A stretch of DNA of 64,000 nt from positions 1-64,000 of the forward strand of contig BPHC01000006.1 in NCBI GenBank assembly GCA_026003355.1. Reading direction: 5' to 3'. This document shows, piece after piece, positions 152 through 36,030 of this stretch. The DNA comes from Cyclobacteriaceae bacterium. Its GTDB lineage: Bacteria; Bacteroidota; Bacteroidia; Cytophagales; Cyclobacteriaceae. The notes under the pieces were generated by a model. That model had not been told where the DNA came from. It was given only the letters and a program-made list of their open reading frames with translations, and ran no database searches. The translations under genes were made by a program, and so were the position numbers. The first letter of the stretch is position 1. The number at the start of each line of letters is the position of its first letter.

Positions 152-1898
<1,747 letters not shown>

Positions 1899-1917
1899 AT
1901 CCGTTTAATTTGGAACG

Positions 1918-1948
1918 CAAAAATAAGGATAATAACCGGAGCGGCTAA
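1918..1948 (-). promoter_or_regulatory. Probable lysS promoter
   Basis: On the minus strand the -7 element TATTTTTG (1918-1925) fits the Bacteroidota consensus TAnnTTTG. A weak -33 element TTAG (1945-1948) sits 19 bases upstream. The lysS start codon follows 20 bases downstream. Confidence 0.55.
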
Positions 1949-2002
1949 GAACTCCTGCTCCAGGAAACCATGGCTACGGCAGCATAGCCTGTTTTACTTA
2001 TG

Positions 2003-29016: not shown

Positions 29017-29415
29017 TTAGTACACGTAACACAAAACTTCTCCGCCCACATTCAGTTTGCGGGCTTCTTTGTCGGTAATCACACCTTTCGAGGTAGAAAG
29101 GATGGCTATACCCAGGCCGTTCATCACACGGGGAAGGCGCGAAGTATCTACATACTTGCGAAGGCCCGGAGTAGAGATGCGCTCCAGCCGGGTGATGGCG
29201 GGTTCACGGGTTTCGGGGTGGTATTTAAGGGCTATTTTAATAACTCCCTGGGGATTGTTACCCTGCTCGAACTTGTAGTTCAGGATATAACCTTTGTCGA
29301 ACAACACTTTGGTTATCTCCTTTTTAAGGTTCGAGGCGGGTATTTCTACCACGCGATGGTTGGCTTTTATGGCATTGCGCAACCTGGTCAAATAATCTGA
29401 AATAGGGTCAGTCAT
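29017..29415 (-). CDS. rpsH: 30S ribosomal protein S8
   Basis: Primary 16S rRNA-binding protein, 132 residues from the ATG at 29415 ([20 protein letters not shown]). It ends in the conserved [26 protein letters not shown] region. In E. coli S8 binds the spc mRNA and represses the operon. Here the gene is preceded by an unusual 174-base gap that holds a strong promoter and two overlapping hairpins, so it probably begins its own transcript as well as being read from upstream. Confidence 0.95.
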
Positions 29416-29433
29416 ATACTGTTTCCTTCTTTT

Positions 29434-29472
29434 CTGCTTTAAAATAAAGCAGCCCGCAAAAAAACGGGCTGC
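29434..29472 (-). promoter_or_regulatory. Overlapping hairpins in the rpsH leader (terminator-like and alternative)
   Basis: Read on the minus strand, an 8-bp stem GCAGCCCG/CGGGCTGC (29465-29472 with 29449-29456, T-rich loop) is followed by TTTATTTT, the form of an intrinsic terminator. A second 8-bp stem CTGCTTTA/TAAAGCAG (29445-29452 with 29434-29441, 3-base loop) uses the last four bases of the first stem, so the two cannot form together. Transcripts arriving from rpsN would carry the full first stem. Transcripts from the promoter at 29472-29502 would begin within its 5' arm and carry only part of it. Confidence 0.65.
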
Positions 29473-29502
29473 AAAGATACCTAACAATTTTGGTTATCCA
29501 AA
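29472..29502 (-). promoter_or_regulatory. Internal promoter before rpsH
   Basis: A full consensus Bacteroidota promoter on the minus strand: -33 TTTG (29499-29502), exactly 19 bases, then -7 TATCTTTG (29472-29479). Downstream reads GCAGCCCG with a T run, as at rplC and rpsT. Confidence 0.85.
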
Positions 29503-29589
29503 CTGTTACCTGGTTTCGGGTGTTCCGGCTCCTCCGGACTACAGCCGACCTGGGTACTCAGCAACCGGTCAGTACGTCAGAAAATTGCC

Positions 29590-29859
29590 TTACCAGCTGG
29601 CCTTGGTGAGGCCTGGTATTTTGCCTTCGGAGGCCATTTGGCGGAATACGTTGCGGCAAACGCCAAATTTGCGCAGGTAACCTCTGGGCCGGCCGGTGAT
29701 TTTGCACCGGTTGCGAAGACGCACAGGCGAGGCATTTCGCGGCAGCTTGTCGAGCGCCAGGTAATTGCCTTCTTTTTTAAGCCGTTTGCGCTTTTCGGCA
29801 TAGGTGGCTACCAGTTTTTCGCGTTTGGCCTGACGGGCTATGATGGAAAGTTTCGACAT
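29590..29859 (-). CDS. rpsN: 30S ribosomal protein S14, zinc-free form
   Basis: An 89-residue S14 of the long type without the CxxC zinc pairs; only two isolated Cys are present (LRNRCKI and FGVCRN). It starts [20 protein letters not shown] and ends with [18 protein letters not shown] 174-base gap separates it from rpsH, the largest gap in the ribosomal block; the 80 or so bases before the rpsH promoter hold nothing I recognise. Confidence 0.95.
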
Positions 29860-35305: not shown

Positions 35306-35937
35306 CACTTCTGCAGAATTACAGTTGAATTTTTAGCGCCCGGAACCGAACCACTTACCACAATAATGTTCTGTTCGGGCATAATCTTCATTACCCTGAG
35401 GTTGGTAATCTTTACACGGTCGTTACCCATGCGCCCGGCAAGGCGCTTTCCTTTAATAACGCGCGAAGCAAAAGATGCATTACCCATTGAGCCCGGCGCA
35501 CGCAAGCGGTTGTGCTGACCGTGGGTTGCCTCGCCTACGCCGGCAAAACCATGACGTTTTACCACGCCCTGGAAGCCACGGCCCTTCGATGTACCCACCA
35601 CATCCACAAAATCGCCTTCATTGAACACCTGCTCTACACGGATTTCTTTTCCAACTTCAACAATGCCTTCAAATTCCTTTCTGAAATCGCGGAACTCTGC
35701 AATATTTTTTTTGGGTGTGGTTCCCGCCTTCTTGAAATGACCAATAAGTGCTTTAGGTGTGTTCTTTTCCTTGCGATCGCCATAGGCAAGCTGTACGGCC
35801 CGGTATCCGTCTGTTTCAACATTTTTTACCTGCGTAACCACACAGGGACCGGCTTGAATTACCGTGCAGGCAATGCTTTGCCCGTCAGCACCGTAAATGC
35901 TGGTCATCCCGATTTTTCTTCCTATAATTCCAGGCAT
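35305..35937 (-). CDS. rplC: 50S ribosomal protein L3
   Basis: First gene of the block, 210 residues: [40 protein letters not shown], then the conserved [20 protein letters not shown] and the [20 protein letters not shown] region. In most bacteria rpsJ comes just before rplC; here rplC follows a strong promoter directly and a divergent transporter gene lies beyond. rpsJ and the str genes are therefore elsewhere in this genome. Confidence 0.96.
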
Positions 35938-35968
35938 GGGTAAACCTTTTAATGCTTGTTTTTCAGGC

Positions 35969-35991
35969 TTTTGCGCGTTCTTCGCGCAAAA
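35969..35991 (-). promoter_or_regulatory. Hairpin in the rplC leader
   Basis: A perfect 9-bp stem (35969-35977 with 35983-35991, TTTTGCGCG/CGCGCAAAA) with a 5-base loop sits about 10 bases after the expected start of the ribosomal transcript and 32 bases before rplC. It is not followed by a T run, so it is a leader structure rather than a terminator. Confidence 0.55.
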
Positions 35992-35999
35992 AAGGACTG

Positions 36000-36030
36000 C
36001 AAAGATAGGATATAGGATTTAGTTAGCAAA
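36000..36030 (-). promoter_or_regulatory. Main promoter of the ribosomal protein block
   Basis: A perfect Bacteroidota promoter on the minus strand: -33 TTTG (36027-36030), 19 bases, -7 TATCTTTG (36000-36007). It is followed by GCAGTCC and a T6 run. Same layout and spacing as the rpsH promoter. Confidence 0.88.

Follow-up and report, generated by a model that had tools for sequence, protein, structure and literature searches.

The window analysed here, a stretch of 64,000 nucleotides from a member of the Cyclobacteriaceae, carries a cluster of ribosomal protein genes in which NCBIfam matches place rpsN, rpsH, rplF, rplR, rpsE, rplE, rplX, rplO, secY and rplC at the expected positions. On the minus strand, rpsN ends at position 29590 and rpsH starts at 29415, leaving a gap of 174 nt (29416–29589), to be compared with 15 nt between rpsH and rplF and 9 nt between rpsN and rplE. 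A first-pass annotation of positions 29434–29502 had remarked on the length of this gap within an otherwise packed block, and the remark holds. Within the genus of the window, the gap is composed of three conserved blocks, namely an upstream RNA-like element, a promoter and a hairpin (Table 1). No known Rfam family (release 15) matched the gap at E values up to 1, and none reached the gathering score in 15 loci. Words in the gap such as GCTGAG and GGATAA resemble those of the TPP riboswitch consensus; such a riboswitch was ruled out by the lack of any Rfam match in the gap at E values up to 1. A repeat element was also discarded, as the genome has one full copy and the second DNA match consisted of 32 bases of promoter plus a weak hairpin elsewhere (L002).

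Table 1. Features of the rpsN–rpsH gap and the genes that border it (positions in the window)
Feature	Position	Strand	Remarks
rpsN (S14)	29590–29859	−	NCBIfam NF006477, E 3.1e-34; last gene of the upstream half
Antiterminator 5′ strand (proposed), GGTTGCTGAGTACC	29553–29566	−	Last nine bases also form the 5′ side of the S8 helix
Candidate S8-binding element, CUGAGUACC-CAGGUC-(hairpin)-CGAAACC-A-GGUAACAG	29503–29561	−	59 nt; proposed anti-antiterminator
AGGUC, 5′ side of S8-like core	29547–29551	−	Equivalent to 16S 595–599 (S8 core of PMC4176348)
GAAACC, 3′ side of S8-like core	29512–29517	−	Equivalent to 16S 639–644; 29514 corresponds to A642
UAACAGUUU/AAAUUGUUA hairpin	29482–29508	−	Able to form once the S8 helix is open; 93.9% of cells paired (75 sequences)
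Internal promoter	29472–29502	−	−33 TTTG at 29502–29499, −7 TATCTTTG at 29479–29472; exact sigma-ABfr match
Antiterminator 3′ strand (proposed), GGUAUCUUUGCAGCC	29467–29481	−	−7 box plus part of the terminator 5′ arm
Terminator hairpin, GCAGCCCGTTTTTTTGCGGGCTGC	29449–29472	−	9 pairs, 7 of them G-C; followed by TTTATTTT
U-run 3′ of the terminator hairpin	29441–29448	−	Five or more U within 8 nt
Second hairpin of the first-pass annotation, CTGCTTTATTTTAAAGCAG	29434–29452	−	A/T-rich; weakly supported
rpsH (S8)	29017–29415	−	NCBIfam NF001109, E 5.8e-52; first gene of the downstream half

The promoter has the layout TTTG-N19-TATCTTTG, of the Bacteroidota −33/−7 type with a spacer of 19, and agrees exactly with the sigma-ABfr consensus, TAnnTTTG at −7 and TTTG near −33, as given in PMC7366714. 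The pattern TTTGN18-21TANNTTTGC occurs three times in the 64-kb window against 0.53 expected, and a scan for promoters of the E. coli type did not have the one in the rpsN–rpsH gap among its matches. When gaps of relatives were sorted by the presence of the S8-like element described below, TANNTTTGC was found in all 78 element-bearing gaps and in 26 of the 32 others, and TAnnTTTGC was likewise kept in 26 of these 32, including the 17 that come from the family of the window. The consensus promoter proposed earlier for the gap is therefore real and conserved, and belongs to the Bacteroidota type. In Bacteroides thetaiotaomicron the centre of the −7 box falls at −7 (PMC7366714), so that transcription from the box in the gap would start at about 29468–29470, within the 5′ arm of the terminator hairpin. 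A promoter of the same type precedes rplC (35999–36030, minus strand); after it, within 35930–36030 on that strand, comes UUUUUGCGCGAAGAACGCGCAAAA, a hairpin that belongs to the leader preceding the upstream half. The whole genome contains 25 TANNTTTGCRSCC sites (TAnnTTTGCRSCC), compared with eight matches to a reversed control pattern. The idea that promoter plus hairpin is a genome-wide habit was rejected: among these 25 sites, only the window site (−19.2 kcal/mol) and L136 (−20.3 kcal/mol) fall below −15 kcal/mol in the 34 bases past the box, the next one being L125 at −13.5. The L136 site (about 1480–1520, minus strand), the sole other site of the 25 with a very strong hairpin directly past the box, lies just beyond the end of an ORF of 136 amino acids (1545–1955, minus strand), and no same-strand ORF of at least 60 amino acids is listed downstream in that locus.

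The 5′ arm of the terminator hairpin starts at the G of the −7 box TATCTTTG. With 40 terminator-like sites listed over 16 kb (shuffles give an expectation of 28.2), this hairpin is the one with the highest G-C pair count, and across relatives its stem is paired in 98.0% of cells, with pair 108-123 being GC in 60 and CG in the 13 rows where it has switched. Covariation in relatives, put forward in the first-pass annotation as a check on both stems, was thus found for the first of them, and the terminator-type hairpin with its T run described there is genuine and conserved, as is the packing of promoter and terminator into common bases. As in an attenuator, an intrinsic terminator lies before the gene presumed to be regulated. 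Each of the 78 element-bearing gaps has a −7 box from which a hairpin begins, followed by five or more U in the next eight bases, and the U-run was retained in 74 of 75 sequences (at least five U in 8 nt) when the end of the hairpin was set by another rule. Taking as terminator-grade a hairpin of −6 kcal/mol or lower, and as a U-run at least five U in the next eight bases, the combination was observed in 78/78 gaps with the S8 element versus 4/32 without it, an association to be read with the facts that the terminator columns were part of the alignment behind the whole-leader model R2, that two of the 32 element-less gaps had no S14 in the locus and were represented by the 250 bases before rpsH, and that the sequences are related, so that a single event may account for it. 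Counting L246, which has a U-run terminator and no S8 part, would change 4/32 to 5/33.

Of the 32 gaps devoid of the S8 element, 21 also have a hairpin that begins at the −7 box, four of these hairpins being terminator-grade with a U-run. The hairpin could accordingly serve, above all, at the 5′ end of mRNA made from the promoter, by stabilising it for instance; it would then be common in Cytophagales, with termination of read-through secondary. We regard this as quite improbable, because the GCA:UGC pairs need bases upstream of the likely start that promoter-derived RNA would be missing, and because the U-run associates with the S8 element. The earlier proposal that RNA reading through from rpsN carries the full stem stands; its companion, a start inside the 5′ arm, is deduced from how the −7 box is named and centred and stays a prediction, by which RNA from the internal promoter would lose the basal terminator pairs adjoining the U-run.

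Directly upstream of the previously annotated interval lies an element that the annotation had passed over. Its consensus is CUGAGUACC-nA-GGUC-(variable hairpin)-GAAACC-n-GGUAACAG, with the 3′ strand reading GGUAACAG, and its core matches the loop by which S8 recognises 16S helix 21, a loop that in the 16S of the same genome reads AAGUC..GAUACU. In PMC4176348, the S8 core of 16S is described as A595-(A596-U644), G597-C643, U641 and the invariant A642; other base combinations at 597/641/643 still bind S8, and a Thermus variant has G595-(C596-G644). The element retains 597-643, A642 and the 596-644 pair, the latter as G-C in place of A-U. The core GGUC/GAWACC, including the 596-644 pair, stands between two paired helices in 70 of the 75 sequences; the five exceptions comprise three rows with GGCC/GGGAACC and two with CGUC/GAAACC. 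The base preceding the core, equivalent to 595, is A in 73/75 and U in L215 and L225. The bare core motif is not rare, with two occurrences in the window against 0.94 expected. In the 75 distinct sequences the S8 helix was paired in 98.9% of cells, with 22 both-side changes against 1.2 in shuffles (pair 13-62, for instance, is UA in 33, CG in 21 and UG in 21), and a first set of 17 sequences had given 96.1% and 14 against 4.6. The relative nearest by S8 identity (98%), L178, whose genome is also that of L004, carries the U of the rRNA at 641. From these sequence features, we infer that the upstream element mimics 16S helix 21 and would bind S8, which lends support to the mention of S8 as a possible ligand in the first-pass annotation.

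These observations bear on the reading given first in that annotation, plain insulation, according to which a constitutive terminator is followed at once by a promoter, separating two units, and the RNA structure upstream is either a mere spacer or a site for some other ligand. The −7 box, terminator-grade hairpin and U-run found in all 78 element-bearing gaps speak for it. Against it stand the conservation and covariation of the structure upstream, together with its S8 core, present in 70/75 sequences, and we consider this reading improbable.

The 5′ edge of the S8 site, GGUUGCUGAG (29557–29566), is complementary to CUUUGCAGCC, made up of the −7 box and terminator arm. The duplex of GGUUGCUGAGUACC with GGUAUCUUUGCAGCC amounts to −15.3 kcal/mol, a strength equalled by 13 of 20,000 shuffles for a pairing that was first spotted in a fold and tested afterwards, and by three other 14-mers among 23,986 in the surrounding 24-kb r-protein region. 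As this putative antiterminator uses bases of the S8 helix, the two structures are mutually exclusive. GGUUGC, outside the S8 helix, is conserved in 61/75 sequences. Changes in the 5′ strand turned U-G into C-G in seven rows and gave U-A in one; both-side change across the 75 sequences was confined to one pair against 1.5 in shuffles, the outer pairs being nearly invariant, so that covariation does not establish the antiterminator. Some pairs are missing from part of the set: inner pairs 14-92 and 13-93 in 49/75 and 23/75, respectively, and the outermost, 1-106, in 14/75.

Folding predictions were made for RNAs of increasing length. With the RNA ending just past the 5′ arm, the outer helix of the antiterminator had a probability of at least 0.955 in each of the first 18 sequences; with the RNA ending past the 5′ arm, the antiterminator was above 0.5 in 68/75 and below it in 7/75. 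The S8 helix exceeded 0.5 in just 33/75 before the −7 box was made, and its mean probability over the 75 sequences dropped from 0.41 to 0.09 as the stretch containing the −7 box and 5′ arm emerged. The UAACAGUUU/AAAUUGUUA hairpin covers the −33 box and most of the spacer of the promoter. In the full RNA at equilibrium, the terminator had a mean probability of 0.80, or 0.86 with the S8 helix forced. Equilibrium hence favours the terminator with or without the S8 helix, so that a switch would have to be kinetic; with the decision made during growth of the RNA, S8 would be needed to hold its helix.

In the first-pass annotation, a second hairpin overlapping the first was put forward as a possible switch. 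This hairpin is present, and CTGC (29449–29452) is common to both, as claimed. Its conservation is at best weak: a version of at least five pairs, G-U counted, is absent in 23/75 rows, and one of at least six pairs, found in 39/75, exceeds shuffles of the tail past the U-run (mean 19.5, maximum 29 in 100 rounds) in a control that ignores relatedness. Its arms vary from one group to another, and many rows show mainly the U-run set against an A-rich tail. Moreover, its 3′ arm emerges only once the U-run has been transcribed. A switching role for this hairpin is thus not borne out, and the terminator is more likely opened by GGUUGCUGAG.

Combined, these results lead us to a model that we hold somewhat more probable than otherwise, an autogenous, S8-controlled transcription attenuator of the anti-antiterminator/antiterminator/terminator kind, fused to an internal promoter. 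Polymerase arriving from rpsN would first produce the RNA that mimics the site occupied by S8 in 16S helix 21. When S8 is in short supply, GGUUGCUGAG would re-pair with the emerging CUUUGCAGCC, blocking the base of the terminator and allowing read-through into rpsH-rplF-rplR-rpsE and beyond. If S8 is in surplus, it would hold the CUG..CAG helix, no antiterminator would form, and transcription would stop as the terminator closes at its GCA:UGC base. Since initiation at the internal promoter would take place inside the 5′ arm, the resulting transcripts would be devoid of the S8 site and of the GCA of the terminator base, providing a supply independent of S8. The 15 bases at 29467–29481 would serve as −7 box, antiterminator strand and start of the terminator 5′ arm at the same time, and we give even chances to the proposal that they hard-wire an S8-sensing read-through attenuator to an S8-blind internal start.

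The position of the element, which lies where the upstream unit ends, 88 nt before the rpsH start codon and too distant to cover it, would also suit retroregulation, in which the terminator ends the upstream mRNA after rpsN, S8 bound near that 3′ end alters decay of the mRNA and not termination, and rpsH depends on its own promoter. In E. coli, S8 is known to retroregulate rplN and rplX (PMC10931766), and the low antiterminator probability in 7/75 rows is in keeping with it. It would leave unexplained the GGUUGC conserved outside the S8 helix in most sequences and its complementarity to the terminator arm, and we deem it unlikely.

The distribution of the arrangement was assessed by looking for rpsH in 59 genomes, including that of the window; it was found in 57, and gaps were read in 50 of them as well as at 80 named loci (the best 80 of 568). 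Of the 390 genomes sampled from the family, 81 were matched by a covariance model of the whole leader; they belong to 8 of 84 genera, with one match per genome apart from one genome with two. The 80 matches that were read all sit just after rpsN, followed by rpsH in 79 and by the contig end in one. In the order, the whole-leader model R2 matched 8 of 291 sampled genomes, every one in the family of the window. The match in L246 is weak and consists of the promoter and terminator; in this locus (genus g18) the rpsN–rpsH gap measures 92 nt, perhaps as a result of natural deletion of the S8 element.

Pedobacter, Mucilaginibacter, Sphingobacterium and allies share with the window the AGGUC/GAWACC core between two helices in the same rpsN–rpsH gap, in the form GAUAG-nA-GGUC-(hairpin)-GAWACC-n-CUAUC (96.9% of cells paired, 18 rows). 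Their site differs in lying about 10–20 nt before the rpsH start codon, a position that fits translational control. A model of this form, R1, matched 9 of 295 sampled genomes of the class, all in a single family, f60. Its transfer to the family of the window was abandoned, as scores on the Cytophagales form were at chance level (E 2.6 or worse, 22 loci); of ten weak matches, three fell on the core (L162, L172, L184) and the others elsewhere. The two forms thus have a core in common, yet are not linked by the covariance model. In the Sphingobacterium loci L082, L087 and L096, the order of parts differs, a TAnnTTTGC box being followed directly by a terminator-like hairpin with a U-run and then by the S8-like site. 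Prevotella, Parabacteroides and relatives (L062, L086, L095, L097, L105, L107, L109) have a different hairpin shortly before rpsH, approximately AUUGUY..RAUnAAU, perhaps a further S8-like site lacking the bulged A. A third form, approximately UAUAAUUAUCC..GGAUAACAUAUA, precedes rpsH in several Bacteroidota MAGs (L039, L043, L073, L084, L111, L112), and a fourth conserved stretch, CUUAG..AAGAG..CUUGGCU.., in some MAGs (L042, L056, L065, L068).

No comparable S8 element was found in Rfam or in the literature searched, in which subscription journals were thinly covered and which included the available parts of PMC7247131 and PMC10931766; a text search with few terms gave no occurrence in those of PMC8046335 and PMC2965389. 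The 20 new leaders in Table 1 of PMC7247131 include no S8 leader. If the attenuator model is correct, S8 control in the spc region would here differ in kind from the control seen in E. coli and act on transcription. It would supply a concrete candidate S8 element, present across several genera within a single Bacteroidota family, with a second candidate form in another group, as well as a case of promoter and attenuator using identical bases.

Among known systems, the S8 site at rplE in the spc operon of E. coli is, according to PMC10931766 and PMC4176348, likewise an mRNA mimic of 16S helix 21, and involves the same protein family and gene cluster; it differs in acting on translation of rplE, whereas the site in the window lies between rpsN and rpsH, far from a start codon, has a terminator and carries G-C in place of A-U at 596-644. 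The bL20 attenuator in the infC leader of B. subtilis is similar in that binding to an rRNA-like site favours a terminator (PMC10931766), and differs in ligand, position and architecture. In the rplJL leader of Bacillus subtilis, PMC4538822 describes an attenuator in which a ribosomal protein complex, L10(L12)4, holds an anti-antiterminator, antiterminator and terminator are exclusive, and the protein promotes termination. There, another protein acts on the leader of its own operon; the site in the window is located in the middle of a cluster, and its antiterminator strand doubles as the −7 box. We infer that the element of the window would work like the L10(L12)4 attenuator of B. subtilis and use the ligand known from the spc operon in E. 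coli. This suggests that S8 may control translation in some lineages and transcription in others while rRNA mimicry is kept, as is known for L10 and L20.
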